From Vicia villosa (lineage: Eukaryota > Streptophyta > Magnoliopsida > Fabales > Fabaceae): 64,000 bases of DNA. Positions within the stretch are counted from its first letter, which is position 1. Each line of letters starts with the position of its first letter. Below are positions 6,019 through 41,843 of the stretch, piece by piece. Both the position numbers and the translations under genes were made by a program. The notes under the pieces were generated by a model. The model saw only the letters and a program-made list of their open reading frames with translations, had not been told where the DNA came from and searched no databases. Where the stretch lies: contig NW_026705444.1 of NCBI RefSeq assembly GCF_029867415.1, positions 62,001 to 126,000 on the forward strand. The letters run 5' to 3'.

Positions 6019-7246
6019 TTTTTCTGTAGCGGGGAAATTCTGATATCGAAGCCATGGGATTGACTCGAATCAATATTCCGTTTGAAATCGCCACCGCGCT
6101 TTATTTTTTCAAAGGAAAAGGGAAAAGAACGTAAAACCCAAAGTTTTGTTTTTTTAAAACAAGAAAGAGATCTCAGGTACGGGTGTTGATTATATGAGGG
6201 GAAGGTTTAAAGCACCCCTCATATCTGTGGTACTCCACAGGAACCTTTTTGAAAATCTGTGTCGTGTGTGTGCTAAAAAAGGGTTTGTTTTATTTTTTAA
6301 AATAAGCTCGGCAAAGCGTTAAGCTTTGGGCCTACATACCTCCTCGGTGCAATGGAGAAGTCAGAGCTAATGTAGTTCCGCTTTTTTGGGAAAACATTTT
6401 TAAAAATGAATAAACACTTTATCGTCGTCGGAGAGAAATACTCAGCCATTGATCTTGAGCATGAGAACAAACGAGTTCTTTGCATCGCTAATGAAAGAAG
6501 GGCTCCAACTCGGATAAAATCGACGAGTATGCCACTAGCTCTCTCACGCGGAAAAGATCTCATTATATCAATCAATTTCAAAATCGTGGGGTATAACCAC
6601 TCGTTTTGACGATTAACGGTGTCTAAACTTTGAAGGAAAAGGCCACTAAGGGCAAAAGATTTTTTTAAAGAAAGAGGTTTTGAAAATGATTGCAAACATC
6701 AGAAGGTTTTTGAAAAAGGGAGAAGATTTTGAAAATTTAAGAATGGGAGGAGATGAAGAGGCTATCCTATTGCGTAAAATAAAAGCTAAGGAAAAGAACG
6801 GTCTAACCGAAGTAAGAAGCCAACACTTGACATTGTGAGTCAATGTAGATTTCCCATCCTTTGGACTTATCAATACCAACACATTAACACTTGGGGGATC
6901 CAGATGAACTTATTGTCTTAGCACCACTTTTCATTAAGCACATTAAGATTCTGACGAAAATCGGGCAGAGTAACGGCTGTTTTCAGGTAAAATCCTTATC
7001 TCAATGCCTTGGAATTAACCATCAAGGGCTTTCAAGGAAATACCTGCACATACAAACAGACAACAATCCAATGCCAGACAGACAGAATAACAGCAGAGTA
7101 ATAACAGAATAAGAGTCCAGAGGCACTAGGTCCATAAGTCCGAATCTCCAAAATGCTAGGGATAGTAACCAATAGTCCAAAGAGAGCCTTATGTGTTTTT
7201 TAGATTTTGGTTGTTTATTAGTGTTTTAGCATAAAAGTAAAGTATG

Positions 7247-17768: not shown

Positions 17769-17777
17769 GAAATATAA
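17769..17777. repeat. Left 9-bp target site duplication of the MULE
   Basis: GAAATATAA, identical to 25225-25233. Nine base pairs is the usual Mutator-family duplication length. Confidence 0.95.
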
Positions 17778-18073
17778 GAAAAAAAATCCAAATAACCAAG
17801 TTTAATAAATAATTTACACCAAAAACCATGTTTTTGGCAAAATTACGTATATGACCAGGTTTCAGAGGTGGTCTTCACATAGGAGCCACCTCAGGTGGCG
17901 CCAATGCCTATTTTGCTTGAACTTATGCGCCACCCAGGGTGGCTTCAATGTACATTTTTCTCTTTTAAGCCACCTAGGGTGGCGCCTATGTGTATGATTT
18001 TTTTTTTTGTTTTTTTTAATTGTTTGTATACTATTTTTTTTAATTTTTTTTATTATTTATTTATAAAATTGTT
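17778..18073 (+). repeat. Left terminal inverted repeat of the MULE
   Basis: About 296 bp, starting G-AAAAAAAA-TCCAAATAACC and matching the reverse complement of 24931-25224. It carries three imperfect palindromes built on GCCACC/GGTGGC at about 17885-17902, 17929-17947 and 17970-17988. An AT-rich tail forms its inner third. Confidence 0.95.
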
Positions 18074-18275
18074 TTAACATAAATAAATAAATTATATTTT
18101 GTTTTTTTGATTTTTTAAAAATTGTTTTAACAATTAAATAAATAATGAAACACCACATGTCATTCATTCCAAACATTACAAATACGAGAAATGCAGAAAC
18201 AACATTACAAATACGGTCATACAGTCCAAACATTACAAATACGGAAAAAAAAAATTTTAAAACATGGATATTATG

Positions 18276-19069
18276 CTATTCACGACCCCTCCGACCCGGA
18301 GTCGGACCATGACCCCTCTCACCGCCAGTTCCGCAATCTGGAACTGTTCGAATCCGGTTGGAAGGATCTCGACGACCCACTTCTCCACGACCCCCATATT
18401 CCTTGGTTGTTCTTGTTGTGTCTGGGTAGGTGGTCCTCGGATTAGCCCCTCCATGCGCTCGTTGGACATGTATTCTTGTATGCTGCTGTCAAATAGTCGG
18501 GTCCCCATGCCCTCAAAGATTGGTCTTGGCGGTGGAGTTGCGTCATATGGTCGGTAAAACCCAGCACTTGATTGGCCTTGGAAAAATGGCATTGTTTGTT
18601 GGGGTGTGGTGTAACCATATTGTTGGTGTTGTGAAAATTGGGGTGTGGAGTATCCATGTTGTTGGTACTGTGACGATTGAGTGGTCATTTGCTCGTTCGG
18701 GTCATATTCGTCATCTAGATCCATGTCGGGGCTGGGTTGCCTATTGGAGTTGGAGGGGCCGGCGTCGCCGTGTTGTTGGGTGAAGCCCCATGATTGTTGT
18801 TGGATGGGTTGTCTAGTGGAGGTGGAGGGGCCGACGTCGTAGTGTTATTGGGTGAAGCCCCATGATTGTTGTTGGACAGGTAGCCTAGTGGAGGGGTCGG
18901 CGTCATGGAGTTGTTGGGTGAAGCCCCATGATTGTTGTTGGATGGGTTGACTTTGGTAGGGCGTTGTTGGTGTTGTTTGATATTCTTCATGGTAAGGTTG
19001 TTCGGATGTTTTGTGTTGTCGGCGTTGCTGGCGTTGTTGGCGTTGTTGGGGTGGTTGTTGGGGTGGTTG
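18276..19069 (-). pseudogene. Broken C-terminal tail of the PMD gene
   Basis: The frame of the last PMD exon stays recognisable beyond its stop at 19070-19072. It runs on as glutamine- and proline-rich sequence with three copies of a QQQSWGFTQ motif, meets a second in-frame stop at 18845-18847, then continues through MDLDDEYDPN and Q/Y/P-rich sequence. Near 18400 a frameshift is needed to continue into a short basic end with CGTGG, which is typical of such proteins. This indicates a longer ancestral protein whose tail has decayed by two nonsense changes and one shift. Large overlapping asparagine-rich frames here are shifted readings of the same repeats. Confidence 0.7.
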
Positions 19070-20611
19070 TTATGCGTATTGTTGTTGGTGGGGGTCGTGT
19101 AGGTAGTAGGGGTCGGACACATACATATCGGGGGTTGTGACTGTTCTAAACCAAGCAACGTATTCCGCGGTTGGAAACATGGGGAGTTGGGCAACAGGGA
19201 ATTGTAGCAGACGGCTGCGACGCTGCTTCCACATCTCACAAAATTCAGGTGCGAATGTACGATAATCTGCGTGGTCCCATTGATTGTTAACTCTTTTAAT
19301 ATGCCAGCGACCCAAATCAGTGGGGGGATCCGGGATTGGTTGATGCATGCCAAACTGTAGTCTCACACGGTCAGATTGGTGCATCTCCACGATGTTGAAC
19401 CTTATTATAGGTGTCACTGCAGTCCAAACTTCCCGGTCACTCTCGTTTGGCTCATGGTCTAGCATCAAGTATGGTCTCCAATTAAACTGCGTAGGAGAAA
19501 AAATAACATATTATTAAAAAAGATGATGGATTGTAATACATCTATATGATCATATAAAAGTTTAGTGGTAATACATCTTCAGCTCGGAGGTGATCAATTA
19601 GGTCCCAATACAAAATAACACTCCCCCTCGGATTCTTACTGTAATCCAATTTAGGACCACAGAACCTAAGAAAAAAAGAGCAAACATGTTATTTCAGATT
19701 TTTATGTAAAAGAGAGTTAGCGTTCAAGGGATAGCGTTGAAAAAGACGTACCTTGTTGCATAAGGGAACGTGTAGTTGTTCCTGCCTGCAGGGGATAGCG
19801 TCGGTAGTCTCCACCAACCCCATACTTGTAGGAGGAACGCACATCCATAGAAGGTGCACTTCTCGGCAACCGCGTTCTTACAAAGCGATTGGTATAACAT
19901 CGCCAAAACGGCAGACCCCCAACTATATTTCCTAATCTTGCTAATACTATCAAATTTACTTAAATAAAAAAAGTTGACAGTGTTACCTATCGACTCCGGG
20001 AATAAAAGGTTACCAAACATCAGCATTATATAGACCTTAGTCATTAACCAAACATGCTCCTCGGTAGAGTTGTCCATCAAGATGAGTTCATCATAATAAG
20101 CTCTAAGGGAGGCCAGACTGATACCCTGGCCTCTTGAACCTTGAGTAGGCACAACTAGATCTCTTCCCAACACTCTCTCACACAGTGAATTAGCATGTTG
20201 AACAGATCCATTAACAGCCTTGCCATCAATGGGCAGACCAAGCAACATATAAACATCTTCTAGAGTAACAGTACACTCACCTATTGGAAGATGAAACGTG
20301 TGGGTTTCAGGCCTCCATATCTCTTGTAAGGCAAGGATGAATTTTCTGTCTATGGTGTTGTTGTGCATTTTTATGATATGTCCGAAGCCACATGCTTGTA
20401 GATTCGGAATAATCCTCTCGTCGGGTTCAACATAAGCGTGAGACCGTGTACGGAATCGGTCAACAACCTAAGAACCACAAATAAATCGATTAAACTAGAT
20501 GTCATATACGCATAGATGTTTAGAAATAAATAAGTATGAACTTACAAATGTCGCCAAGTTTGCTCTAGTTCCTTTGTGTGTTTCACCCATGGTAAGAAGT
20601 TGTTGAGCCAT
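19070..20611 (-). CDS. Plant mobile domain (PMD / MAIN-like) protein carried by the MULE
   Basis: Four exons: 20546-20611, 19752-20467, 19575-19665 and 19070-19486, all GT-AG, in phase, 429 residues to the first stop. The PMD core is clear: W73-RPETHTFHLP, GE at 85-86, LEDVYMLLGLPIDG ending at 104, and later exons with YWDLIDHL and FNWRPY. PMD proteins occur as host genes (the MAIN/MAIL family, which act in silencing and genome stability) and as cargo of MULEs and LTR elements. Here it is cargo, divergent from the transposase. The product may be a shortened but stable PMD protein, since the stops fall after the folded domain. Its role in transposition is unknown. Confidence 0.85.
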
Positions 20612-21036
20612 TTTCAAGAACTCTTTAACTTTTCTGCGGATTTGAAAATGCAAAGTGGTTTTTTGAAGAAGAAGAAGATATGTTGGTGAAAAGAAAGTAT
20701 TCTATGAGAGTATTTATAGAGGGGTGGTGGTTGCTGATGTTTAGTGCATGATGGCCAAGTGGTGAGCATGCATGTGATACAGATATCAAAGTGATAAAGA
20801 TGGGTTCACATGCATTCTGTGCTGAATTGTCTAAGCATGCATGCATTAATTGTTTCTGGCAGAATAGACTAGGCCTGCATCCCGTGTTCGGTGCTGAATT
20901 GTCTAAGCATGCATGCATACAGTATTTTGATGCAGGTAGATCACATGCTGGCGGATTAGATTAGGGTTTTGGCAGTGGGGACCGCTAGACAAAATTAGGG
21001 CAAAAAAAAACAAAAAAAAAACTAAAATGCACTAAT

Positions 21037-21099
21037 GCGCCACCCCAGGTGGCGCCATTCTGTTGAATTTTGTACTAATGCGCCACCCCAGGTGGCGCC
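21037..21099. repeat. Two GCGCCACC/GGTGGCGC palindromes in the MULE interior
   Basis: Two identical palindromes with 8-bp arms and a short spacer, 43 bp apart, each preceded by 'actaatgc'. They match the palindromes in both terminal repeats and could be transposase-binding or regulatory sites. Confidence 0.9.
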
Positions 21100-21226
21100 A
21101 ACATGCAACCCTTTTTTTTTTCTTCAAAAATTAGGGTTAGGGTTTTCTATGTTATTTTTTGTATTTTTAGGGTTTAGGGTTTTCTAGCTGTTGTTTTACC
21201 GAAAATAATTAGCATACAGTCTTCGC

Positions 21227-21440
21227 ATGTGATTGTACAGTGTGCACTGCTCAGTATAGTTGTGTCTGGTCAAGTTGGCAAAGCTGCAGTTCACCAGTGT
21301 CAAGCACACCTCAAATCAACTCAGTACGTTTGTGACGATTCAGGCATTCATTTTCCATCAACTTTATTCGTATGTGATTGTACAGTATGCACTGCTCAGT
21401 GTGATGGAGTCTGGTCAAGTCGACTGTGCAGCAGTTCACT
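21227..21440. repeat. 145-bp-spaced direct repeat upstream of the transposase
   Basis: 'atgtgattgtacagt-tgcactgctcagt' occurs at 21227 and 21372, followed in both by 'tctggtcaagt', 'gcagttcac-agtgtca', 'aactca' and 'gtttgtgatgat'-like phrases. It is a diverged tandem duplication of the promoter or 5' leader. Confidence 0.85.
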
Positions 21441-21570
21441 AGTGTCATAATGATCTCAACTCAACACAGTAAGTTTGTGATGATAAAAGCATACCTCTAA
21501 TGTGGAAAATAACACAACTCATTACACATCTCATTTCACAACTGAAATAACACTCTTTACCCACTCAACA

Positions 21571-23961
21571 ATGGCCCCTCCACAATACATTATCAACGCT
21601 CATGTTTTTGGCGAGACATATGACAACGAAGAAGTTGGTTTTCTGTTTAGAAACACCGAGGTTAAACGATTTTGTTTAAGCAGAAAAGAAAATTTCAGTT
21701 ACTTCAAAAGGAGATTAGAGACGAAGCTTGCAATGGGTGGTGTATCCCAGATTTTATACCAATATCGGTTTCTTTGTGGGGACAACCCGGTCAAGTTTAT
21801 CCAAGTTGAGATCAAAGACGATGAAGACATGCAGAATATGTTCGCCAATCATGAGTATTCTGGTTACGACTGCATAGAACTGTATGTTACTCTACCAGAA
21901 GTTGAACCCACACAAATGGTTGAGTCACAAGTCATTGATGCACTTGGAGACGAGCAAGCAGAGGTCGACATTGTAGATGAAGAAGAAGAAGCACCGGAAA
22001 TAGAAGTTGATAACTTGGTCAACGAGGAAAGTGAAGATGAACCGGAAGTTGTTGTACCACGAGATCAAGTGCATATGCCTCCAGCGCACATGAGGAACTT
22101 GAATTTTGATGGGGATGACGAACCATCGACTGATATTTTCTATGATCCATACACTCAAACAGATCAACGGTTAAAAGTAGGAGACAGATTTCGTTCTAAG
22201 GAGGCATGTATCATGGCCATAAAAAGATTTCATATGGCAAACAATGTTGATTTTAGAGTTGATCACGCCAATGTCGAAAGGTACAAAATTTATTGTAGAA
22301 ACAATGATTGTGGATTCAGGTTGCATGCATCATACAGGAAGAGAAGTGATTCATGGGTTATAGGATATATTTCCCATGATCACACATGTGTTAACACAAA
22401 TGTTTCACAAGATCATCGTAAGCTAAGTTATGACATTATTTGTCAAGAAATCTTGCCTCTGGTTGAAAAAGATCCATCGTTAAAGGTGAAAACGATAATC
22501 TCTCATATCGTTGCAACATACAACTACACTCCGTCTTATAGAAAGGCGTGTCTGGCGAAGACCAAAGGGATCGAAGTTGTGTATGGAAATTGGGAGGATT
22601 CGTACAAACGACTCCCACATTTCTTATATGCGCTTCAAATTTATGCTCCTGGATCCGTTACTATTTTAGAGACCCTTCCGGCGCAATCTCCAGACGGAAC
22701 ATCCCTTCAAGGAAATGTGATATTCCACAGGCTCTTCTGGGCTTTCCGCCCATGTGTACAAGGATTTTCATATTGCAAACCAATTCTTCAAATAGATGGA
22801 ACTTGGTTGTACGGAAAATATAAAGGCACCATGTTGATGGTTGTGGCTCAAGACGGAAATAGTAACATCTTTCCTGTTGCTTTCGCTCTTGTGGAAGGAG
22901 AAACTGCTGGAGGTTGGGGTTTCTTTCTCAGAAATCTTCGGACACATGTTGCCCCCCAACCTGGACTTTGCTTGATTTCAGACAGACATGCTGCCATCGA
23001 GAGTGCGTACAACAATCCAGCAAACGGGTGGCAAAACCCAACATCAATGCATGTTTACTGTATTCGACACATTGCACAAAATTTCATGCGGGAGATAAAG
23101 GACAGGGCTCTTCGGAAGACACTTGTCAATGTCGGATATGTGTTGACTCAACCGAAGTTCCAATATTATCGACATGAAATTGTAGCGGAAAATCCAGATG
23201 CAGGCAAATGGTTAGACAATCTTGCTAGAGAGAAATGGACCAGATCATACGACAACGGGAAGCGATGGGGGCACATGACTACGAATCTTGTGGAGTCTAT
23301 GAACGGGGTGTTTAAGGGCATCAGACACCTTCCAATTACTGCCTTGGTGGAAGCAACATACTATAGGATGGCTTCTATTTTCGCAAGAAGAGGTGAGCGT
23401 TGGAATGCAGTTATAGAATCCGGAAAATTATGGAGCGAAACATGCGTCAAATTCATGAAAGAGCAATCTGCCAAAGCCAACAGCCACATTGTGACATCTT
23501 TCGATCGATTCAACCGGACCTTCAGTGTTAAAGAAACGATTGACCATAACGAGGGCCTTCCGAGACAACAATACAGGGTTCTTATAGATGAAGGGTGGTG
23601 CGATTGTGGAAAGTTTCAAGCCTTTCGGATGCCATGCTCTCATGTAATTGCAACATGTTCGTATGCGCATCAAGATCCGTTAGCACTTTTATCTCCCATT
23701 TACAAGGCGGAAACCTTGCTCGGGGTGTACAACAACTCATTTCAAGTGATGGCAAAGGAGGATTATTGGCCTGCTTATGAAGGGGACGTGGTTTGGCATA
23801 ATGATAACATGCGGAGAAAGAAAAGAGGTCGCTCGAACAGCGCCTGGATCACAACCGAGATGGATCATGAGAAAATGGTACGAAAGTGTAGCATATGTCG
23901 TGAAGTCGGGCACAATAAAAATACCTGTCCTAACCGTGGATCAAATTCCACCAACAATTAG
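21571..23961 (+). CDS. MuDR-type MULE transposase (796 aa, intact)
   Basis: Single exon. I start at ATG 21571, in good context (caacaATGGC); the upstream in-frame codons back to 21502 begin with GTG. Order: an N-terminal ubiquitin/PB1-like region (to about 110) ending in an acidic DDEDMQNMF segment; an acidic linker; a zinc-binding DNA-binding domain C242-x4-C247...H269-x-H271; the MULE transposase domain with D409 (QIDGTW), D471 (SDRHA) and C497-x2-H500; the third acidic residue is probably E554 or E575; a SWIM finger C677-x-C679...C689-x-H691; a CCHC knuckle C773-x2-C776-x4-H781-x4-C786 at the end. It cuts and pastes the element. No stops or shifts, so it could be active. Confidence 0.95.
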   Translation: MAPPQYIINAHVFGETYDNEEVGFLFRNTEVKRFCLSRKENFSYFKRRLETKLAMGGVSQILYQYRFLCGDNPVKFIQVEIKDDEDMQNMFANHEYSGYDCIELYVTLPEVEPTQMVESQVIDALGDEQAEVDIVDEEEEAPEIEVDNLVNEESEDEPEVVVPRDQVHMPPAHMRNLNFDGDDEPSTDIFYDPYTQTDQRLKVGDRFRSKEACIMAIKRFHMANNVDFRVDHANVERYKIYCRNNDCGFRLHASYRKRSDSWVIGYISHDHTCVNTNVSQDHRKLSYDIICQEILPLVEKDPSLKVKTIISHIVATYNYTPSYRKACLAKTKGIEVVYGNWEDSYKRLPHFLYALQIYAPGSVTILETLPAQSPDGTSLQGNVIFHRLFWAFRPCVQGFSYCKPILQIDGTWLYGKYKGTMLMVVAQDGNSNIFPVAFALVEGETAGGWGFFLRNLRTHVAPQPGLCLISDRHAAIESAYNNPANGWQNPTSMHVYCIRHIAQNFMREIKDRALRKTLVNVGYVLTQPKFQYYRHEIVAENPDAGKWLDNLAREKWTRSYDNGKRWGHMTTNLVESMNGVFKGIRHLPITALVEATYYRMASIFARRGERWNAVIESGKLWSETCVKFMKEQSAKANSHIVTSFDRFNRTFSVKETIDHNEGLPRQQYRVLIDEGWCDCGKFQAFRMPCSHVIATCSYAHQDPLALLSPIYKAETLLGVYNNSFQVMAKEDYWPAYEGDVVWHNDNMRRKKRGRSNSAWITTEMDHEKMVRKCSICREVGHNKNTCPNRGSNSTNN

Positions 23962-24010
23962 TTGTATGTCATTTGTATTTTGTATCTGTATTTTTATTGA
24001 TAATGTTTTT

Positions 24011-24090
24011 GTATTTGTATTAGTATTTGTATTTGTATTTGTATTTGTATTTGTATTTGTATTTGTATTTGTATTTCTATTGGTTATGTA
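24011..24090. repeat. (GTATTT)n microsatellite after the transposase stop
   Basis: About twelve GTATTT units with few interruptions, 50 bp after the transposase stop codon, probably inside its 3' UTR. Confidence 0.95.
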
Positions 24091-24312
24091 TTTGTATTAA
24101 CCTTTATTAAATCAACTAGTTATGTCTTTGTCTCGTTGTGAAATTGTCTTCATGGCCCATACTGCCACTCTTTATTTTGGACAGTCAAATACGCATGCTT
24201 TCGTCTAGTCCCATCAAGTCAGTCATTGATCAGTGTGTCTACATTTATCATACATGTTAGGTGTGCTTGTAAACAGTACGCAACATCATTACTTTTTTCT
24301 ACCCACTACTAT

Positions 24313-24320
24313 TATAAATT
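24313..24320 (+). promoter_or_regulatory. Candidate TATA box of the third MULE gene
   Basis: TATAAATT 80 bp upstream of the ATG at 24393. Spacing fits a short leader rich in CA, as seen in many plant 5' UTRs. Confidence 0.5.
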
Positions 24321-24392
24321 AGGGGCTCCTATGGTTGAGTTTACACACAGATACACAAACTCCAAATATCAAACAATCACACAAACACAACC

Positions 24393-24776
24393 ATGCCTCG
24401 CCGGACAACCATTAGGCCAGATGGATGTCACCGGACAACAGAGTTGCCGCCCTGGAGATCAACATGGCATGCCGAACCTGAACCGAAGTATCGCAGAAGG
24501 ACCGGACATGTCATATTCTCACCCGTCAAACCTCCCATGCCGGTTATGTTTTGGAATATCTCTTCCGTCAACCAACTCAAGAGGACTCTCGTGAGATTTT
24601 TAGAGGGGGAGTACGAAGCCGACGAACAGATAAGAAGCATCAAGAGGCTTAAAACAAGGGTCGATGCTGTGACTGGAGCAACGATAACTTTCTGGGATAA
24701 CGTGGAATACGACATTGATGTCATTCAAAAGATGCATGGACCTAATGACATTGTTTTAACCGTGGTGATTTCTTAG
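24393..24776 (+). CDS. Small third MULE gene, 127 aa, possible PB1-like protein
   Basis: Uninterrupted frame from a true ATG, preceded by its own TATA-like box and followed about 155 bp later by the right terminal repeat. The N-terminal 35 residues are arginine/proline-rich and basic. The C-terminal 75 run FWNISSVNQLKRTL...DAVTGATITFWDNVEYDIDVIQKM...IVLTVVI. That order (hydrophobic strand, helix, YDID acidic turn, final strand) resembles the N-terminal domain of the transposase (DDEDMQNMF...IELYVTL). I do not recognise the family. Either a diverged copy of that domain serving as a partner, or a chance resemblance; codon-level conservation in other copies would decide. Confidence 0.6.
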   Translation: MPRRTTIRPDGCHRTTELPPWRSTWHAEPEPKYRRRTGHVIFSPVKPPMPVMFWNISSVNQLKRTLVRFLEGEYEADEQIRSIKRLKTRVDAVTGATITFWDNVEYDIDVIQKMHGPNDIVLTVVIS

Positions 24777-24930
24777 ATGTTTTAGTTTGTCTTTTTCTGT
24801 TGGTTATTTTCTATGTACCTTTTAATTAATGAATGAACTACTGTTTTCCGTGAACGCTCGAGTGAGGTGATTCACTGATCTTATCTGTTGCAATTTAATA
24901 TATATATTTTTTTAATACTTTAAAATAATA

Positions 24931-25224
24931 ACAATTTTATAAATAATAAAAAAAAATTTAAAAAAATAGTATAGAAACAATTAAAAAAAAAACAAAAAAA
25001 AAGAACATACACATAGGCGCCACCCAAGGTGGCTTAAAAGAGAAAAATGTACATTGAAGCCACTCTGGGTGGCGCATAGGTTCAAGCAAAATAGGCATTG
25101 GCGCCACCTGAGGTGGCTCCTACGTGGAGACCACCTCTGAAACCTGGTCATATGCGTAATTTTGCCGAAAACATGATTTTTGGTGTAAATTATTTATTAA
25201 ACATGGTTATTTGGATTTTTTTTC
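24931..25224 (-). repeat. Right terminal inverted repeat of the MULE
   Basis: Reverse complement of the left repeat, with the same three palindromes (about 25017-25035, 25058-25076 and 25101-25118) and the same AT-rich inner tail. Confidence 0.95.
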
Positions 25225-25233
25225 GAAATATAA
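25225..25233. repeat. Right 9-bp target site duplication of the MULE
   Basis: GAAATATAA directly after the terminal C of the element, identical to 17769-17777. Confidence 0.95.
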
Positions 25234-27905: not shown

Positions 27906-28333
27906 TGTTAAATTATAATTCCTTGTGTCGAAAAGATTTGTTTTCTTTAGAAGTGTAGAAACAGTTTGTTACACACATATTTGTTTTAGATCTTGATAGA
28001 TTTAATTTAGATTTAAAATAGATTTGATTTGATTTAGTTCTAAAATAGATATTCTGGGCTTTGGCTTAGGAAGCAAGCTTATCTAAATATATAAGTAGGG
28101 AGTAACCCTCATTATTTTGTAATCAATAAAAAAAGTTGTATTCACAGAATTTGTAGTTGCAAGTGAATAACAAAGTTTTCCACAGTTTGTGGGTAGAGAG
28201 TTACTCTGCAGAAACCTTAATCTCTTTTCTTCTTTAAATTTCTTTTCTCTTTTCATTGTTATCGTGTGGTGATAACAATCTTGTTCATCAAGATTGATAG
28301 AAATTCATCATAGGTTTTTGTGCATTTCCAACA
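27906..28333 (+). mobile_element. 5' LTR of the copia element (428 bp)
   Basis: Starts TGTTAAATTATAATT, ends TTTCCAACA. 'ataagtagggagtaaccc' at about 28090 probably includes the promoter region. Near the end it has a dyad GTTATCGTGTGGTGATAAC. Confidence 0.92.
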
Positions 28334-28335
28334 TC

Positions 28336-28348
28336 TGGTATCAAGAGC
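28336..28348 (+). promoter_or_regulatory. Primer binding site of the copia element (initiator Met tRNA type)
   Basis: TGGTATCAAGAGC, two bases after the LTR. It matches the common TGGTATCAGAGC site apart from one extra A. Confidence 0.85.
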
Positions 28349-28386
28349 TCCGATTTATTGATCAAGGGAAGAAGAAGAAAATCACG

Positions 28387-29330
28387 ATGGTGGTAAATTA
28401 TGGGAATGGAAATTATTTAGCAAGTCTACCAATTTTAAAAGTAGATAACTATGAGAATTGATGCAAACAGATGAAGGTTTTATTCAGGTGTCAAGATCTT
28501 TGGGATCTTGTAAAGGATGGAGTAGAAGAGCTGGAAGAATACACTTCAGAAGAAGAAAAGAAAGAACATGAATAATTGAAGAAGAATATTTATAAAGCAC
28601 TTTTTATAATTCATCAATGTCTAAGTCCAGATAACTTCGAAAAGATTAGTGATTCTTAATCTACAAAAGAAGCTTGGGAAATTCTTGAAAAATCCTTTGG
28701 TGGCGCGGAGAAGAGGCGAGGTTACAAACTCACAAGAGAACGTATGAATTATTTCAGATGGAAGATAGCAAAAGCATAACTGATTTCTTCACTAGAGTTA
28801 CGAAAGTAGTGAATCAAATCAAGATATGTGGAGAAACGTTAACAATAAGAGTTGTTGTTTCAAAGATCTTGAGGTCTCTGGACCCTAATTTCAACCACGT
28901 GGAGGTATCCAAAGAAGAGTCGAAGGATTTTTCGAAGTTGACAAAAGAAGAGCTTCAAGAGACCCTTGAATCTCACAAACAACGAATGACTGAAAGAGCT
29001 GCAGGCAAGTATAAAAGTGATGCGGTTTTGTAGGCTCACTCGACAAACGAAAAGAAAGACAAAGGAAGCTGGAACGGAAATAAAGGTAGAGGTGGCTAAC
29101 ATAATTCGACTGGTCGAAATCAGCAAGAAGGAAGTTGGTCAAATCGGAGAAAGCTCTCATACCAAGGCAACCAAAGAGGTGGTGCTGCTGGTAGAGGAAG
29201 AGGTGGTGGTCGAAAGCCTGACAAGAGTCACATTCAGTGTTTCAATTGTCACAAGTATGGTCACTATTCTACAAAGTGTCCAGAAAAGAATGAGGATCAA
29301 GAAAGTGATGAAAAGGTTTTCAAAACAAGA
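28387..29330 (+). pseudogene. copia gag remnant
   Basis: Begins ATGGTGG..., with stops early on (for example at 28459 and 28574). A readable gag segment spans 28758-29033 (SITDFFTRVTKVVNQI, then a basic tail), and a zinc knuckle CFNCHKYGHYSTKC is encoded at 29238-29279 in another frame. Not functional. Confidence 0.85.
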
Positions 29331-29380
29331 AGAAGAAGAAGAAGAAGAAGAAGAAGAAGAAGAAGAAGAAGAAGAAGAGA
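29328..29380. repeat. (GAA)n tract inside the copia polyprotein
   Basis: About 17 GAA units just after the zinc knuckle, encoding a glutamate run in one frame. It lies between Gag and protease and is probably a post-insertion expansion. Confidence 0.95.
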
Positions 29381-29409
29381 TGATGTTGATGGTCATAACA
29401 AAAGATGAA

Positions 29410-30834
29410 GATAAAGTCAAGGACCAATGGTACTTAGATTCAGGATGCTCATCAAACATGTCTGGAAGGAATGATTGGTTTGTCAACATAAAGCCCTCAA
29501 TGAAGAACATGGTGAAATTCACAAATTACAATACTCTAGTAGTTGAAGGTATTGGGGACACTCTAATTATGAGGAAAGGTGGAAAAAGGTCAGTAATTTC
29601 CAATGTGTTGTACATACCAGGCATGAAGAGCAACTTGCTCAGCATTGGGCAGTTAGTTGAAAAGAACTACAAAGTGTTGATCAAAGACTAGATGATGAGA
29701 GTCGTCGACGCAGGTGGAAGGTTAATCTTGAAGGCTCATATATCTCAAAGTATAACCTTCTAGATCAAACTCGATGTGATGGAGCACAAGTGCCTTTCAA
29801 CTGCAGCTAGCAGTGATGAATGGATGTGGCCCTATCGACTAGGGCATCTCAAATTCAAAGACATCAGAGACTTGAAAAGAAAGAATATGGTTTCAGGACT
29901 ACTAGAAATCGACACTCCAAGCAAGGTATGTGAGGAATGTGTGAAAGCAAAGCAGCACAAGAATAGCTTCAGCAAGGATGCAGGAAGTAAGTCGAAGGCT
30001 GTTCTCGAAATTATATACTCTGATGTATGTGGTCCTATCCAGATGGAATCGAATGGAGGTAATAAATACTTTGTTATATTCATAGATGATTTCAGTCGAA
30101 AACTATGGACTTACCTGATCAAGAAGAAAAGTGAAGTGACCTAGGTATTTGTCAAGTTTAAATCGATAGTCAAAATACAAAGTGGTCGAAAGCTCAAAGT
30201 TTTGAGAACTGGTGGTGGTGGAGAGTATGTGTCGAAAGACTTCGACATGTTATGTGAGAAGAAGGGATTGTGCATGAGGTGGTGCCACCTTACACTCCAC
30301 AGCATAATGGAGTTGTAGAATGGAAGAATCGAACCATTGTGAATATGGTGAGAAGTATGTTGAAAGGCAAGAATTTACCTAAATAATTTTGGGGTGAAGC
30401 TGTGTCAACCGCCACATATATCTTAAACAGATGTCCGACGAAGAAGCTAGAAGGAATTACTCCAGAAGAATGTTGGTCTAGTATGAAGCCTGGCATGAGT
30501 TATCTGAATGTATTTGGATCTATAGTACATAGACATGTGCCAGATAAGTTGAGAAGAAAACTTAATGACAAGTCGAGTCAGTTGATCCTAATAGGACATC
30601 ATTCGATTGTAGGTTACAAGTTGTTCGACTTAGTGAATGAGAAAGTAGTGATTAGCAGGGACATGATTATAGATGAGCTTAAAGAATGTGATTGGAATGA
30701 AAATTTCAAGAAAGATTCAGTGAGAATCTTACTCGAAGAACCAGAAACTCAAGTCAAAAGAGAAGTTCGACAAGAGGAGGTTAGAGATCAACTATGTACA
30801 AGCAGACCTTAGAGAACAAGACACATGCCTGCAA
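29410..30834 (+). pseudogene. copia protease and integrase remnant
   Basis: Protease hallmark WYLDSGCSSNMSG at about 29431. Integrase zinc-binding part around HLKFKDIRDL and C-x2-C (CEECVKAKQHK, about 29930), then YSDVCGPIQ and FIDDFSRKLW (about 30018-30110). Stops interrupt it at 29689, 29761, 30142 and 30384 among others. The integrase C-terminal part continues to about 30830. Confidence 0.88.
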
Positions 30835-30866
30835 GGTTGTGAGATTGTGTAGTTACATCTAATGAT

Positions 30867-31731
30867 ATGGTCAATAATGAATGTGAGCTAGTATATTATG
30901 CCTTCTATGTAAATGTTGAACCTGTCAATGCAGATGAGGCATTGAAGGATTCGAAGTGGGTGAAAGCTATGAATGGGGAAATAAAATCCATCGAAGACAA
31001 AAATACTTGGTCACTTTCCGAATTGCCTCAAAGAAAAAAGGAAATTGATTTCAAGTGGGTATAAACAGTGAAGATGAGTCCCAAAGGGGAAATAACACGA
31101 CACAAAGTAAGGCTTATGGCAAAAGGATTTCTACAGAAGGAAGGAATGGACTTCGATGATATTTTTGCACTTGTTTCTAGGATCAAAACAATTAGGTTGG
31201 TTGTTGGTCTAGCAGAAATAAACAGCTGGCACATATGTCAGATGGACGTGATGTGTGCATTCTTAAATGGACCCATAGACAAAGAAGTCTATGTTGCACA
31301 ACCAATTGGGTTAGTGAAACATGGCAAAGAGAGAAAGGTGTACAGGCTGCATAAAGCCCTGTATAGACTGAAGCAAGCTCCAAGAGCTTGGAACAAGAAG
31401 ATCGACGATTTCCTAAGAGAGAAGGAATTTCTGAAGTGCATAACTGAACTTGGAGTATATGTAAGAAGAAATAATAGTAAATTGCTTATACTATGTCTCT
31501 ATATGGGTGACTTGTTAATAACAGGTAGCAGCAAGAAAGAGATCGAAGACTTCAAAGGTGATCTCACCAAGGAATTCGAAATGTCAGATATGGGCGACAT
31601 CTCATATTTCCTTGACATCAAATTCTACAAGAGTAGTAGAGGCTTAATGATGCATCAAAGAAGATATGCAAGTGAAATTCTCAAGAGATTTGAGATGGAA
31701 GAATGCAACTCGACTTCAACACCTGCAGAAG
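30867..31731 (+). pseudogene. copia reverse transcriptase remnant, 5' part
   Basis: Recognisable copia RT: VKMSPKGEITRHKVRLMAKGF, QMDVMCAFLNG, LYRLKQAPRAWN. The catalytic YVDD-type box reads YMGD (31500-31511), so the first catalytic aspartate is lost. A stop at 31062 and the nested LTR at 31732 break the frame; RT resumes at 37475. Confidence 0.9.
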
Positions 31732-32499
31732 TGTAACACACACTTTTTCTCCCAAGGTGTCTCCACCCTTCTTTAAGTGGTTATAGTAGAACTTTTAATT
31801 TATCCTAGAGTGTATGGAGGGGAAAAATCTAAGATAAACCTTGGAGGTGGTGTTTTCTTAGGTGTGGGGATATCACCTAAATATAGATCTAGGGTCCGGG
31901 AGGTTGGTTATACAGAGGGAAGATATTAACACCTTAAGTATCCGTAGTACTCTACGGGAGCCCTTTGCTGTTTGTGTCTGGCTTTAAGTTGTTTGCTGCT
32001 TGGTTACTATGAAAGTTTCTCCTTTGTGATAGGAGATAGAATGAATTGAAGAAAGACAGATAAACTGACTGTGTTTTGGTGTTTTGTTTGCTTGCAAAGA
32101 TTCCTTGTGAACCTCATGCCTACACATCCCTAATGGAAATCAGAGTTTTGTAGTTTGGGGAACTAATAGGGAAATGAATTGAATTTGTGTGTGCCTTGTT
32201 CAAAGCTCAAGGTTGAAGCTTGAAATTGATCTCTGTTAAAGAAAAAAGACAAGTTGTCATCTTAACGGAGAGATATCTCTGCTATTCCTCCACAAACATT
32301 TTGAAAGTGACAGAAAGGAGGTTCTTTTCATAATAAGAGATGGACCTTATCTGCTATGCCACTTACATCACCTAAATGGGAAAATTATTTGATGATGATT
32401 GATAATGTTTGTATATTTGAATATGGTGTAATAGAAGAAATGTCCCTTCTGTAGAGATGAATCATGTCTCACATTTGTATGGAAGATCTGAATTTTTGA

Positions 32500-33070
32500 C
32501 TGACTTGTACAAGGCCCAAGCTTGAGGATTTTTGAATCTAACTCTGTTAGAGATGTTTCCACTGGGGATTGTTTTCACCGAAAGCTTTTTATGTGTTATG
32601 TACTAAGCCCAGAATTGAGGTTGACTCAGAGGTGATACTCTATTGAGTGGAGACTCGTGAATTTTGTCTGTTCTGTACTAAGCTTAGAATTTAGGTTGAC
32701 TGAGGAATGAACTTTGAATTATTTCTGTTTTGTATGGAGTCCATGATTGAGGTTGACTCTGAGGGGAGTGAATAATTCTTGTTTAAAGCCCAAGATTAAG
32801 GCTGACTCAACTGGAGAGTACATTTGAAATACTGTATGGCAGTTTATTTTGGTGTCTTGTACAAAGCCCAAGATTGAGGCTGACTCAGTGGGAAAATATA
32901 GTTCTGGATACTATGAATGACTCTACTTTTTGTCTTGGACAAATCCAAGATTGAGGCTAACTCTAGTGGGGAATAATCCAGAGGTTTGAATCCTTTTGAA
33001 TGTTGAGGGAATGTTTTTCTTGTCATGTACAAAGCCCAAGAATGAGGCTGACATAGCTGAGGAAAGATCC
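32500..33070. repeat. Diverged tandem repeat in the nested LTR (about 70-80 bp)
   Basis: 'tgtactaagcccaga/gattgaggttgactc' type phrases recur about seven times (about 32510, 32597, 32675, 32736, 32793, 32857, 32937 and 33027) with irregular spacing. Confidence 0.8.
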
Positions 33071-33119
33071 AAAGGTTTGAATCTTTTGACTATTGGAAGA
33101 TAATGTGGGTGACAGAGAC

Positions 33120-33721
33120 TATAACACCCCACTTTCCAATTTCGAATATAAATAAATTATAAATGCATAAATAATCAGAGTAATACGAGTAGGATGTCAC
33201 ATCTTCTAAAAATCCGTAAAAACATCACTTTATTTAATAAGTTTTCATTAAGGTAAATCTAACACCGCAACGGAATTTAAAACAACTTATTGGTCCTCAT
33301 GGCACTAAGAGGGGAAGGAACCCTCACTACCCTCTCATGCTTAAGTCACCATTTAAATAACCCATTCTCCCCCTTACCTTAGACAGAAGCTTGATTTTCT
33401 TTAACAATGGTGGAGTTCTTCTAACTCTTGCCCTAGCCTCTTCTCTGAATTTCATGTTCTTTTCCAAAGTTCGTTCATCTCCATCTTTCCTCTTAGTTCC
33501 TTATTATTTTTATTAAGACATTACTAATTATTAAATTGCTAATGGACTTAGTACACACCCCATCTACTAATCACACACATAGTCTAATTTAATTAAATCA
33601 CCCTATCATTATATTATAGTTAAATTAACAAATTAATATAATAATGATTAAAATATCAATTTAAGCACCAAATACACCAATAAATACGTAATAAAATAAA
33701 TATCGAAATCGAGGCGTTACA
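33120..33721 (+). mobile_element. 602-bp insertion with TATAACACCCC...GGCGTTACA ends
   Basis: Ends are imperfect inverted repeats (TATAACACCCC against TGTAACGCCTC), flanked by GAGAC and GAGAT, a near-matching 5-bp duplication. No coding frame. It resembles a small LTR or solo LTR; the sequence at 46621 opens similarly (TGTAACACCCC). It is the third level of nesting here. Confidence 0.6.
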
Positions 33722-34429
33722 GAGATTGTCAATGTTCTCATTCCAAGGGGTTGATTCAATATAGAGATTGAGAAACACTTGTGTAATTGGATGTCTAGGT
33801 TGAAGAGCAGAATTTATCACAAGGGTTAGCTAATAGGTGACTAAAGACTTGTCATGTGTTTATAAGAAACCTGATGGATCCTTGTATACAAGCTCAGGAG
33901 GAAGCTGAGGGAAATGCTTATAAGAAGCCCGTGGGTAATTGTATTGTGAGTCCAAAGAAGGTTGATCTAGGGTCCTTGTTGTAGCACAAGAGAAAGCTAT
34001 GTTGGCTTACCTAATTTGGATCTAAGAAAAAGGAGTAAGAGGTTTCACCGGGAATTAATCTTCTTAAGGTGGATATGCCCCTATTGTTGATCTAAGGTTT
34101 CAAGATGTTTCACCGGGAATAATTCATCTTGTGGAAAGAATCTATGTTATTATAATTAGGAGAGGCTTCATCGAGAAGTAATCCTCAATCCTGGTCATAG
34201 TACTATAATATATATACATGTTTATCTATCTTAGGGTTTTTCTCTGGCGGAGATCTTAAGTAGTATATATATACAGTTTAGATTTGACAAAGTATTTAAA
34301 GCAGTAAATCAAAACTATAAAAACTCATTGTATGAAGAGGAGGCCCAATACTGATGTGTGTATAAAGCCTTATTAAACAGTTGAATGTTTTGATGAAAAC
34401 AATGAAGTGTTTTATTGAAAAGAAAAGGA

Positions 34430-34950
34430 AAGGTGTTGGGTCTTATAACTCAAGGAGAGACCCAAAAGATTATTTATTTGTATGAACAAAAGGTGTTAGG
34501 TCTTATACTGTAATAGAGGCCCAAGAATCTGAGATGAGAAAGGAGGGATGTGACTTATGCTCAAGGCAAAGCCAAATGAAATATTTACAGAGAATGGGGC
34601 TTATACTCAGGGAGATGCCCTAAAGATTTGAACTGAAAATAAATTAGAAGTTGATTTGAAAACATTTGAAGTTTGAATTAAAAGTAATTTGATGTTTGGT
34701 TGAGACAAAGAATTTTGAAAAAGAATAAGAGAAATTTGGGGCTTATAACTCAGAGGATAGGCCCAAAGGTCTAAGAGAAGTTTCACCGGAAATAATACTC
34801 CTCTTAGTACCAGAGTTTTGTTTTAAAAAACAGATGAAAAATAGAAGAGAAGGCTTGGGGCTTATAACTCAGAAGAGAGGCCCAAAGGTCTAAGAGCAGT
34901 TTCACCGGGAATAATGCTCCTCTTAGTACCAGATATTTAAAAGGGGATGA
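34430..34950. repeat. Second diverged tandem repeat in the nested LTR (about 117 bp)
   Basis: 'ggggcttataactcaga' followed by 'aggcccaaaggtctaagag-agtttcaccgg' at 34739 and 34856, with more diverged copies at about 34437, 34495 and 34600. Confidence 0.8.
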
Positions 34951-35584
34951 GAAAGTTTGGACAAAAACAAGGTTTTAAAACAGACAAGTATGTACAAAGG
35001 ATTGGGGCCTATACTCAAGGGGATGCCCAACTGTATTTGAAATTGAATTGTATGTATTTGAAAGTTGATAATGAATAATAAAAAAGGATTGTGTCTTACA
35101 CTCTTTAAAAGTCAAGAGGCCCAAATATTTGTTTTGATTGAAAGAAAATTGATTTGAAAAGAAAGAAGAAGGGATTTGTTGAAGGAAAACCCTAATTGAT
35201 TGATTGATCGATACTAAAAATAGTTTGACTTAAAGTGTAAAGACAATTAAATCAAGGTGAACATGGTATGCACATCAAACATTGTTCAAAAACAAAAATA
35301 TTTAATCACCGTGGAGGTTTAAAAATGATTAGATGAGAAAAGAAATAAAAAACTATGGTTTTTATAAGTATTAAAATACTTAAAAATATGCCTTTTTCAA
35401 CTAATTAAAAATACATCAAATAAACATCATTTTTGTGATATTTTTAGATATTCATAAAATACATATATTAAATGAGGATTGTGCAAATGATTAATTAAAA
35501 ATAATTAATTTTGATAGATTAAATAATTATAATTAAGTGAAGTTGTGAAGAAAATGAAAGAAAATAGTGGTAAAAAAAGAAAGG

Positions 35585-35665
35585 TTTGGTCTTGCCAAGG
35601 TTTAAACCCACGCCTTTGTACTGACCATTCAAAACTCTTACCAACTGAGCTACGCGCTTGGGTTG
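35585..35665 (-). other. tRNA-like module in the nested LTR
   Basis: The minus strand has a perfect A-box-like TAGCTCAGTTGG and a B-box-like GGTTTAAACCT at tRNA spacing. No proper acceptor pairing is obvious, so it is a tRNA-derived fragment (SINE-like or pseudo-tRNA), not a tRNA gene. An open frame over it on the plus strand is a by-product. Confidence 0.6.
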
Positions 35666-37474
35666 TCAAACACATGCGTCCAATTAATTATATTTTAAAC
35701 ATGCCCATAAATTCAAAAAAAGGCGCCACCATCATCATCTTTAACCTCAAGCTTTTTGAAATTTAAAATTCCTTACTCTCTCATTTCTCAACAAATGGGA
35801 TGATCCAAACATGGCTTTCACTCAATTTTTAATAAGTAACATGATGATGGTATTTGATTTCATTTATTTTAAGTGTAATTCAAAATTCATACGTATGAAC
35901 CCTAAGAACTCTACAACTGGAATTTAATGTGAAATTGTGTATGTGCATGATATGATGTAATTGGATGAGGGTTAATGATCTACATAGGTGCAGAAACTAA
36001 CTTGTATCTAAAGTTTTCGTTTATGATGCATGAATTAAAGAGTTCAGAGTTTGAAGCTTACCTTCAAAGTGGAAATAGAATTTTGAATTAGAGATGTTCA
36101 ATAAGTTATTTGATGATCTGGACACCTTCACTTGACCCTATGGAGTATGTTTGAATGCATGAAATGATTTGAAACTACCTCGAATGGCCTGCTCAATTCC
36201 ATCTGCAACTTGCTTGAGTGTGATGTGGAACTTTGTGATTCCGATGTTACAGATCATGGATGAGTGTTTGGATAGCTCATATATGATGTGTTTGAGGTGT
36301 GTGAATGCTCATTTTCAAGGGAAGAGTTTTGGTTTGAAGAATTCACTTCTTCACTCCATGGAACTTTTACAAAATGAGCAAAAGGAGAAAATTTGAGGAA
36401 AGCAAGAATTAAAGTTGCTTTGGAGTAAATTTGAATGAGAAAGAGCCTCATATTTATAGGCAATTAGACTGAGATAGCAAGAGAGTGAGGTAGGCATAGT
36501 GAGGTCACTTGGAGAGAAGCTTAGGAGTGAAGAAATGTGAAATATCTTGGAAATGCAATGATGAATTTTTTATTCCAATTGATCCAAGCCCTAGACCTAG
36601 CCCTTGATTTGATTTGATATTGTAGATGATTTCTGATATTTAGAGACATCCCTTTGGAATTGAAGAGAATCCTTTGGTGATTCATCATTTGGTAATCATT
36701 TCAATTTTGTAATCATTACTTTTCACATGGCACTTGAATTCCATGGTACCTTGATATTATTTTGCAAATGGTCCAAAACTTGTACTACTTGCTCTTGGCT
36801 GATGATAAGGTATTAACATGTGCATAGTTGGTGCAATACTTATGCAAAAATTAACCATGGGCAAAAGACTAGTTATGCATAAGACTAGTTCATGAATCCT
36901 TCTTTGAAAGTCCATAACTTCTAGCTCAAGTAAGATCAAAACATGTTCTAAAGATTTTTAGAAAGCTTTTGAGCCATGGGATCTTGTCCTGGTCAAAAGT
37001 CAACTCCCTGAGTGAATTAGGTCAAAAAGCCTAATTATGGGCCAGATGAAATTGGGGGTTGTTGAATTTGAATTGAAGTACATCTTGCATTGGATATTGA
37101 TGTAGGAATCATTTGAAGATTCTTGAGCTTTTTGGATCATACTTTGAAGCTTTATGAGTTTTCCCAAGTGAAAGCCCTGATTTCAGTCCCCAATAAGCTC
37201 AAAACTCTAATCTGGTGACTTTGATGGACTCGAGGTTTGATGCCTTGAGATTGGAGATTATATGTAGATGAGTGAAACATCTCGAGCCCTATGATTGTAT
37301 TGAGGATCATTTATGTCTTTGATTGATCTTTTGCCTAAACTTCATGGCTTGAAACCCTAATTTGAGTACTTGGTGAACAAGGGACTGCTCTGGGTATCTA
37401 CTTTGAGTTGATGGAGTTGTTGAGATGTTTATATGATGTGACATCTCAGGGGGGTCAAAAATTAGGGTATGACA

Positions 37475-38204
37475 AGAACCAAGACTGCAACTGTTGAAAG
37501 ATGAAAATGAAGATGATGTCGACCCAATAAGACTTATTGGGTCATTAAGATACCTTTATCATACAAGGTTTGAATTAGCATACAATGTAGGTATGGTAAG
37601 TAGATTCATGCAGAAACCAAATGTATCACACCTAGCAGTGACGAAGAGGATATTGAGGTATCTAAAAGGAATGCTCAACTATGGCATTTTATTTCATGCA
37701 GCTGATAAATGAAAAGAATGCAAATTAGTGGGATACGCTGATTCAAGTTGGTGTAGTGATGCTGAGGATCGAAAATCTACAGCAGGATATGTGTTTATAC
37801 TAGGTGGTGCACCAGTTGCTTGGAGTTCGAGGAAGGAACCAGTAGTGGCACTATCGTCGTGCAAAGTAGAGTACACAACTGCTTCTCTTTATGCATGTCA
37901 AGCAACATGGATGGTGAACTTGGTCGAGGAAATAACAGGTAAAGATCATGGAGCAATTACCATGAAGATCAATAACATGTCAGCTATCAACCTGGCGAAG
38001 AATCCGATAGCGCGTGGTCAAAGCAAGCACATCACAATGATGTTCCGTTACCTTCGAGAGCAGGTAGCTAAAGGGAAGATCAACTTTGAACACTGCAGAA
38101 CTGAGAATCGGATTGCATATATCATGACAAAGGGAGTGTTGGTCGAAGTGTTCAGAAGACTAAAAGTTATGATGAACATAGATAGCCTAGACACAATGAA
38201 TTAG
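37475..38204 (+). pseudogene. copia RT end and RNase H remnant
   Basis: Resumes with ENEDDVDPIRLIGSLRYL, then RNase H with GYADSSWCSDAEDRKSTAGYVF and LGGAPVAWSSRKEPVVALSSCKVEY. The usual TEAEY is changed to CKVEY, so a catalytic glutamate context is altered. A stop interrupts at 37709. It ends at the TAG at 38202, just before the 3' LTR. Confidence 0.9.
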
Positions 38205-38210
38205 GTGGTG

Positions 38211-38655
38211 TGTTAAATTATAATTACTTGTGTCGAAAAGATTTGTTTTGTTTAGAAGTGTGAAAACAATTTGTAACACACATATTTTGTTTTAGATCTA
38301 GATAAATTTAATTTAGATTTAAAATATATTAGATTTGATTTAATTTCAAAATAGGTATTTTGGGCTTTTATAGTTTTAGGCTTTGGCTTAGGAAGCAAGC
38401 TTATCTAAATCTATAAATAGGGAGTAACCCTCATTATTTTGTAATCAAGAAAAAAGATTGTATTCACAGAATTTTCAATTGCAAATGAATAGCAAAGTTT
38501 TCCACAGTTTGTGGGCAGAGAGTTACTCTACAGAAACCCTAATATATTTTCTTCTTTAAATTTCTTTTCTCTTTTCATTGTTATCGTGTGGTGATAACAA
38601 TCTTGTTCATCAAGATTGATAGAAATTCATCATAGGTTTTGGTGGATTTCCATCA
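38211..38655 (+). mobile_element. 3' LTR of the copia element (445 bp)
   Basis: Same start and end as the 5' LTR with scattered substitutions and about 15 extra bases near 38363. Preceded by a short purine tract (AGGTGGTG). Confidence 0.92.
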
Positions 38656-40559: not shown

Positions 40560-41843
40560 TTCCTAATAACCTCTGAAGAGCTCGAGTGTGTGACTTAGTC
40601 GATCATCATGGAGAATGGAAGTTTGATATTTTGCATAATTGGCTTCCCGCGCATATGATTGACAAGCTCCGCTCTTGTGTGCCTCCGTGCGAGAGAGATA
40701 TCTCTGACGTGTTTTATTTTGCAGGTACTGGAGACGGTAATTTTTCAGTTCGCGAAATGTTTCGAGAAGTTGAAGGTTATAACGACACAATCATTGATGA
40801 TGAGTGGAAGCCAATTTGGAGGTTGGCGGTTCCAGAGAGATATCGCAGCTTTCTATGGTTGCTTAAACATGAAAGGTTGCTAACCAACATCAGCAAAAGC
40901 AAAAAAGGTTTGGGAGACGCGGAATGTCATTCTTGTAGTGTTGTTTGTGAAGACACACTGCATGCATTGCGTGATTGTTACAAAATTAATCACATATGGA
41001 GAAACCTGGTTCCTAGTAACATTATGGAAGTGTTATTCTCTGTGGGTCTTAAAGACTGGATCACTATAAATCTCAAATATTGTGATTCTTGAAATGAGAA
41101 TTGGAAGAGTGTGTGGGCCATTGCGTGTCATACTTTGTAGGAGTGGCGTAACAAGGAAAATCACATCGAAGATTTTGAACGCCCTTATGAGCCTATAATG
41201 CATATTCTAAGGAGAAAAAACGAATATGCTAAAGCTCAGCTTCTTTATTAAGCTTTGGAGGGAGATCGAAGAAAAAAGGTAGATGTTCGTTGGCAACCTC
41301 CAGTGATGAGTATGGTAAAGCTTAATACTGATGGTGCTAGTAAAAGTAACGGGATGGCAGGTTGTGGTGGTCTTGTTAGAGATCATATGGGTGCATGGAA
41401 AGTTAGATTCTCTAAATTCCTTGGCGAGTGTAGTTCTTTACTTGCGGAGTTTTGGGGTGTGTTCGAAGGCTTTAAGTTAACTAAAACTCTTGGATTGAGA
41501 AGGGTGGAAGTTAATGTGGATTCGACAATTGTAGTAAAGGCTATTGAAGAAGATATGATTCGTCAAATAGAGTGTGTTGCTATTTTGCAAAATATCAAGA
41601 AGCTTATTTATGATCATTAAGTGGTAATAATTTCTCATTCCTATAGAGATACAAATATAAGTGTGGATATGCTAGCTAATCATGGTTGTATGACAAAGAT
41701 CTCCTATACTTTTGATCAACCGCCGCAGTTTTTGAAATCCTTCCTGGAGGATGATGCTTTAGGAATTTTAGGCTCTCTTGAGCTTTCTTTGTAGTTTGTT
41801 TTTTTCTTTTGGGCTTCGGCCCTCCATTCTACCAAAAAAAAAA
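40560..41843 (+). mobile_element. 5'-truncated LINE: zf-RVT and RNase H region
   Basis: Frame 40586-41092 has the zinc-binding end of plant LINE ORF2 (C-x2-C...H...C: CHSCSVVCEDTLHALRDC). Frame 41255-41620 has a plant-type RNase H with KLNTDGASK, LLAEFWGV and VNVDST, and SVDMLANHG after a stop. Frames are interrupted by stops at 41090, 41138, 41249 and 41618. It ends with 'cttcggccctccattctacc' and a short A tail at 41834. A dead copy. Confidence 0.85.

Follow-up and report, generated by a model that had tools for sequence, protein, structure and literature searches.

Mutator-like elements (MULEs) are cut-and-paste transposons with long terminal inverted repeats (TIRs), a DDE transposase, and target duplications of 8–11 bp (PMC6446971). 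Among the described systems closest to the element studied here, maize MuDR (mudrA, mudrB) is likewise a TIR element with a transposase and a second gene of unclear role (PMC6446971), and VANDAL21/Hiun of Arabidopsis (VANA, VANB, VANC) is likewise a three-gene MULE with short noncoding motif repeats that differ between families (PMC5735166, PMC6446971); VANC binds repeated motifs in the noncoding parts of VANDAL elements, and these motifs vary by family (PMC5735166). The plant mobile domain (PMD) is known from MULEs of several grasses and Amborella, where it is described as fused to the transposase, so that a MULE transposase and a PMD occur in one element as they do here (Ikeda et al., 2017, PMC5418596), and MUSTANG-B genes, similar to our transposase gene in domain content, have PB1 ahead of MuDR, MULE, and SWIM domains (PMC3435246). 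In a 64-kb stretch of Vicia villosa DNA (the whole stretch that was analyzed, hereafter the window), we studied an element that is very probably a single member of a TIR-type MULE family present many times over in this species, with a gene set of transposase, PMD protein, and small third protein, in which the transposase would bind arrays of palindromes and the additional proteins may have an anti-silencing role.

The window element differs from each of these systems. Unlike the fused PMD described for the grass and Amborella elements (PMC5418596), its PMD, here in a legume, is encoded by a separate, divergent, spliced gene, and it has in addition a third gene and the palindrome arrays. The TIRs of VANDALs are described as absent or as short and degenerate (PMC5735166, PMC6446971), a description that the window element, with TIRs of 314 bp, a PMD gene, and evenly spaced palindromes within its TIRs, does not fit; since related Brassicaceae elements can possess TIRs, their absence in VANDALs is not absolute (PMC6446971). 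MUSTANG-B is domesticated and has its PB1 in a short 5' exon of its own (PMC3435246), whereas the transposase gene studied here belongs to a mobile element and does not carry its PB1-like region on a separate exon. We found no description of a separate PMD gene together with a third gene in a legume MULE in the open-access literature; Repbase was outside this search, so that such a description may exist elsewhere. PMD in MULEs and three-gene MULEs are thus known, and what appears to be new is that a legume lineage combines an unfused PMD gene with a conserved third gene and with the arrays.

The element spans positions 17778–25224 (7447 bp) and is flanked on both sides by a perfect 9-bp target site duplication, GAAATATAA (left copy, 17769–17777; right copy, 25225–25233; 9/9 identical). 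Its left and right TIRs (17778–18091, plus strand; 24911–25224, minus strand) are 314 nt each, with a match between them of 94% over the first 296 bp and 87% complementarity over the full 314 bp ungapped, long enough for a MULE of the TIR type. The original prediction had described a perfect 9-bp duplication, inverted repeats of about 295 bp, an unbroken 796-residue transposase, a divergent PMD gene, and a third small gene, and every one of these was recovered at the positions given here and below. MuDR of maize also has 9-bp target duplications; its mudrB is not known to be a PMD gene, unlike the second gene of the window element.

Among proteins, the best matches were those of V. villosa itself. 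Searches of the species' own genome covered 2.03 Gb in 1888 contigs, and the counts from them are lower bounds. The left repeat had at least 41 matches including itself, the other 40 being 85–94% identical (best 40 of 671 candidates), and PMD exon 2 had at least 150 (best 150 of 12658 candidates). Comparison of ten stretches (L039–L048) with the window revealed four further full copies at other sites (L039, L040, L041, and L044), with the same ends, gene order, and genes and with long blocks that are 92.5–95.7% identical; together with the window copy we call these family A. Target duplications were perfect 9-bp repeats in four of the five (window, L039, L040, and L044), with letters that differ per copy, and the duplication of L041 matched at 4/9 positions in the register used by the program and at 9/10 when a register of 10 bp was picked out of the flanks by eye. 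With the 9/9 duplication of the more distant copy L045 (below), the perfect cases all fall within the 8–11 bp range of MULEs. Because its ends and gene order recur elsewhere in the genome, the element is not a chance arrangement; judged from these alignments, it is a bounded TIR-type MULE that is multi-copy in V. villosa.

The gene set recurs as well. A PMD match lay upstream on the opposite strand within 15 kb of 75 of the 150 listed third-gene matches (within 5 kb in 69 of them), where chance would give about 0.08; a single pair of such neighbors was arranged differently. Transposase similarity was present in the flanks of 27/30 third-gene loci, the window's own included. Within 9 kb of the 40 listed TIR matches we found both PMD and third gene in 21 cases, the third gene alone in 6, PMD alone in 10, and neither in 3, with both ends of one element counted separately and with 53/150 and 28/150 hits typed and narrowed by eye. 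One copy, L006, is without window positions 19198–21215. All three genes are kept in other copies, in the same order in family A and as a set in the more diverged families C and D; thus, we encountered neither of the two outcomes that would speak against the prediction, namely an element with no other copy or a PMD or third gene that is flanking host DNA.

The transposase gene (21571–23958, plus strand) is open throughout and encodes 796 aa with an N-terminal region of predicted PB1 fold, a MuDR DNA-binding domain, a DDE core, a SWIM domain, and a zinc knuckle. Pfam families PF10551, PF03108, and PF04434 all exceeded their cut-offs, the first with 63.5 bits (cut-off 27.6), which places the protein in the MULE superfamily. 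In an alignment of 16 rows, D409 and D471 are invariant and E575 is nearly invariant; we take these three to be the catalytic residues of the acidic triad. The zinc knuckle scored under its Pfam cut-off, yet in the same rows its C-C-H-C positions hardly vary. A structure model of the N-terminus (about residues 1–110; pLDDT 89.8) had NBR1 PB1 as its top Foldseek match (E 1.9e-4, the sole match <0.001), with PB1 entries at all of ranks 1–9, and the Pfam PB1 family PF00564 reached 17.5 bits, under its cut-off of 23.6; the region is therefore predicted, from the model, to adopt a PB1 fold. In a tree of 26 chosen transposases, the window and family C fall into a 5-row clade (support 100/100), which nests in a 14-row set (96/92); the origin is known for 12 rows of this set, and each of them comes from Vicia, Lathyrus, or pea. 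The suggestion that this unusual gene set may mark a distinct MULE lineage is supported by the conserved set and by this clade, but the association of PMD with MULEs as such was already in print (PMC5418596, PMC8616336). Just past the transposase stop codon, about 21 copies of ATTTGT begin (23971–24098).

Three further families share the gene set at greater distances. In family D (L046), the transposase is 82%, the PMD mostly 76%, and the third gene 58% identical to those of the window; the gene order is the same and the ends are undelimited. In family C (L045), the transposase is 69% identical and open over 798 aa, the PMD 53–55%, and the third gene 55%; here, the third gene sits between the PMD and transposase genes as the divergent neighbor of PMD, and there is a second small gene of 107 aa. 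The family C element (L045 and L047) is 8854 bp long with the target duplication ACGACATGC (9/9), and a second copy at another site, L048, is 99.8% identical over the 3.9 kb that precede a 5-kb run of N; the right end of L048 was not found. Since nine of the best 150 PMD matches, that of L045 included, have an identical score, family C seems to have spread recently. Between the 107-aa gene and the transposase gene of L045, about 520 bp (positions 6227–6746 of the reverse complement) are nearly palindromic (85%) and might represent a nested hairpin element.

In family B (L042 and L043), the transposase is 53–58% identical to that of the window (79% in a short stretch) and the PMD 41–54%, whereas the third gene is 91–92% identical and lies inside a block of 94.6–94.7% nucleotide identity that corresponds to window positions 24150 to 24953 in L042 and 24150 to 25058 in L043. 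As a family-A third-gene block thus sits amid a much more diverged transposase and PMD, these loci are best read as an exchange of the third-gene cassette between MULE families.

The noncoding parts of the window element carry three arrays of the palindrome GCCA-N7-TGGC: three copies in the left TIR (17885, 17929, and 17969; spacing 44 and 40; array 17885–17983), two between the PMD and transposase genes (21039 and 21082; spacing 43; 21039–21096), and three in the right TIR (25019, 25059, and 25103; spacing 40 and 44; 25019–25117). Counted as 15-bp GCCACC-N3-GGTGGC-like sites with ≤2 mismatches, there are 8 in the window, all in the element (0.10 expected). The looser GCCA-N7-TGGC pattern was devised after viewing family C, so that the family C count is independent only through its shuffled control (shuffling of two-base blocks); it occurs 8, 8, 7, 8, and 8 times in the five A copies, 5 times in D, and 10 times in C, against shuffled means of 0.04–0.10 (0.03–0.10 with family B included), and zero times in the 56,553 window bases outside the element. 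The spacing is 40–44 bp in A and D and 40, 42, 42, 44, 43, 50, and 32 in C. Terminal palindromes of A and D fall within the inverted repeats; in family C, 6/7 of them lie just inside the 129-bp repeats defined by alignment, and the space separating PMD from the third gene holds the internal array. The palindrome interior is A+T-rich in C and G+C-rich in A, with identical outer half-sites. Palindromes in both ends and between two genes suggest a self-recognition system.

The PMD gene (19070–20611, minus strand) runs opposite to the transposase gene, from which it is separated by an intergenic region (20612–21570); two direct repeats of 126 nt each (79% alike; 21222–21492) lie upstream of the transposase. 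Its splice model, hand-picked on canonical splice sites from sequence alone, has four exons (20611–20546, 20467–19752, 19665–19575, and 19486–19070) that encode 429 aa up to the first stop. The plant mobile domain family PF10536 scored 159 bits in the frame of exon 2 and 48.8 bits in that of exon 4 (cut-off 34.9), making the product a member of the PMD family, and the domain exons of the window copy are free of stops. A relic of a glutamine-rich C-terminal tail (about 18257–19069, minus strand) follows in the exon 4 frame, interrupted by the stop at 19070–19072 and a second in-frame stop. The same tail is open in L041 and L044, where frames of 300 and 374 aa span it. In the portion beyond the second stop, it also resembles the tail of P0128, a pea protein from a cluster of 89 (45% over 51 residues, E 0.002). 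Given two in-frame stops here versus open frames in L041 and L044, the PMD tail of the window copy is most likely truncated; the element, predicted to be structurally complete, is so in its bounds, ends, and gene set but not in this tail. The five best PMD matches belong to clusters of 17, 1, 1, 1, and 89 sequences, and its nearest relatives are thus partly many-copy.

The third gene (24393–24776, plus strand), downstream of the transposase gene, encodes 127 aa and is conserved across the MULE families. A Pfam search with its product gave no family above cut-off and no known DNA-binding domain. The gene is open in all five family-A copies, and 142/150 matches in the genome were without a stop (best 150 of 2266 candidates, in a ranking that favors unbroken copies). 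Omega was 0.20–0.56 in the 7 between-family pairs formed by 5 sequences; within family A it was 0.65 for the window versus L031, 0.65 for the window versus L023, and 0.06 for L031 versus L023. Variable columns among 24 distinct copies were distributed over the codon positions as 13/24/29. From these comparisons, the third gene is constrained across the lineage but may be relaxed in the window copy.

What the third protein is may be hinted at by family C, in which the 107-aa open frame (reverse-complement positions 5380–5703 of L045), for which neither the window nor any other locus of L001–L046 gave a match, stands beside the third gene. By profile comparison, its product is related to the PB1 region of the transposase (hhalign 94.9%, score 46.6; 0/240 controls reach this score, the best being 21.6). 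The third protein might then itself be a PB1 domain, diverged and standing alone, whose partner is the PB1 domain of the transposase, and the strand-helix order of its low-quality model is readable as PB1. Its score against the 107-aa protein was 23.7, however, which was matched by 2/120 shuffles and 0/120 unrelated segments, its profile reached only 0.7–1.4% against the transposase PB1 region (3.0% once the 107-aa protein was included), and its model (pLDDT 53.5) had no notable structural match; we therefore hold this identity tentatively, at somewhat below even chances.

Several observations weigh against our interpretation of the element as one of many copies with a conserved gene set and recognition sites of its own. 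The transposase is unbroken in only one of the five family-A copies read, that of the window itself, and recent activity of family A is thus unsupported; outside family A, L042 and L046 have a broken transposase as well, and L045 has an open one. Family B is without such an array (L042 has 0 palindromes; L043 has 1, which falls within the right part that resembles family A). As many as 75/150 third-gene matches have no PMD partner among the best 150 PMD matches, which may be a ranking effect or real loss. Constraint on the third gene within family A appears weak at best (pN/pS 0.478 over 24 distinct copies and 276 pairs), and pN exceeds pS in 15/23 comparisons of the window's third gene with other copies. 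The last of these figures, the four broken transposases of family A, and the two stops in the PMD tail are what would be expected if the window copy were a dead relic, its transposase open by luck and the element mobilized only with the help of other copies. On the other hand, the window copy has open frames for its transposase (796 aa), for the exons of its PMD domain, and for its third gene, together with a perfect target duplication, and we regard the relic as a serious contender on the lesser side of the balance.

Under the interpretation that we prefer, the transposase would cut and paste the element and, perhaps multimerized through its PB1-like N-terminus, would bind the GCCA-N7-TGGC palindromes, which would serve as dimer sites. 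The helical repeat of DNA is 10.5 bp per turn, and the palindrome spacing of about four helical turns would place the sites on one face of the DNA. With one protein both marking the ends and controlling the region between the divergent genes, transposition would be coupled to expression. Less surely, the PMD protein and the small protein may shield the element from silencing, a hypothesis that draws on MAIN/MAIL1 (PMC5418596, PMC8616336) and on the precedent of VANC (PMC5735166). Since its PMD tail is truncated, the window copy may rely on other copies for PMD function.

The arrays could instead be targets of an anti-silencing protein, PMD or the third protein, in the manner of VANC, rather than sites of the transposase. 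They occupy noncoding parts, one of them next to the PMD gene; A and C share the outer half-sites but not the motif interior, and VANC targets are likewise family-specific (PMC5735166); and the PMD proteins MAIN and MAIL1 act in the silencing of transposable elements, and a counter-silencing use by such elements has been proposed (PMC5418596, PMC8616336). Against this, the arrays of A and D also occupy the inverted repeats, the expected binding place of a transposase, and the third protein lacks any DNA-binding domain detectable by Pfam; we consider such targets unlikely, if well worth keeping in mind. That the PMD and third genes are mere passengers without a role in the element, host-gene fragments captured in the manner of Pack-MULEs, is very improbable: host-gene capture by MULEs is documented (PMC5418596, PMC8616336) and PMD genes also occur as host genes, but this reading is largely refuted by the conserved gene set, with order and orientation kept at half of the listed third-gene matches, recurrence in families whose transposases are 53–82% identical, and constraint on the third gene between families. 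Because the set recurs in copies and diverged families and the third gene is constrained between them, we conclude from these comparisons that both genes belong to the element, whose normal set is transposase, PMD protein, and small third protein.

Elsewhere in the window, a pair of 282-nt direct repeats (28052–38655), separated by 10.3 kb and 93% alike, surrounds Ty1/copia-type fragments at 29017–31736 (Pol_BBD, gag_pre-integrs, SH3_retrovirus, and RVT_2), perhaps a copia element bearing an insertion between about 31.7 and 37.7 kb. Two frames at 40586–41620 with zf-RVT and RVT_3/RNase H domains are perhaps a decayed LINE-type fragment. Satellite-like tandem arrays lie at 83–1614 (230-bp unit), 57032–57810 (86 bp), and 61563–62120 (100 bp), and an inverted repeat pair of 255 nt (37157–37411 and 51145–51399) is 73% complementary with its arms 13.7 kb apart.

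PMD genes are related to the host silencing factors MAIN and MAIL1, and these observations bear on why such genes are found in transposons. A bolder proposal, which we put forward as a speculation that is more probably wrong than right, is that legume PMD-MULEs independently evolved a VANC-like self-recognition, in which the palindrome interior would co-evolve with a complex of PMD, small PB1-like protein or proteins, and transposase, so that each family would de-silence and mobilize only its own kind while third-gene cassettes are traded. The small third gene of these transposons, to which no Pfam family could be assigned, is conserved and appears to be exchanged between families. As the families differ in their proteins and also in a readable DNA motif, they make the counter-silencing role of PMD, and the identity of the protein that reads the motif, directly testable.

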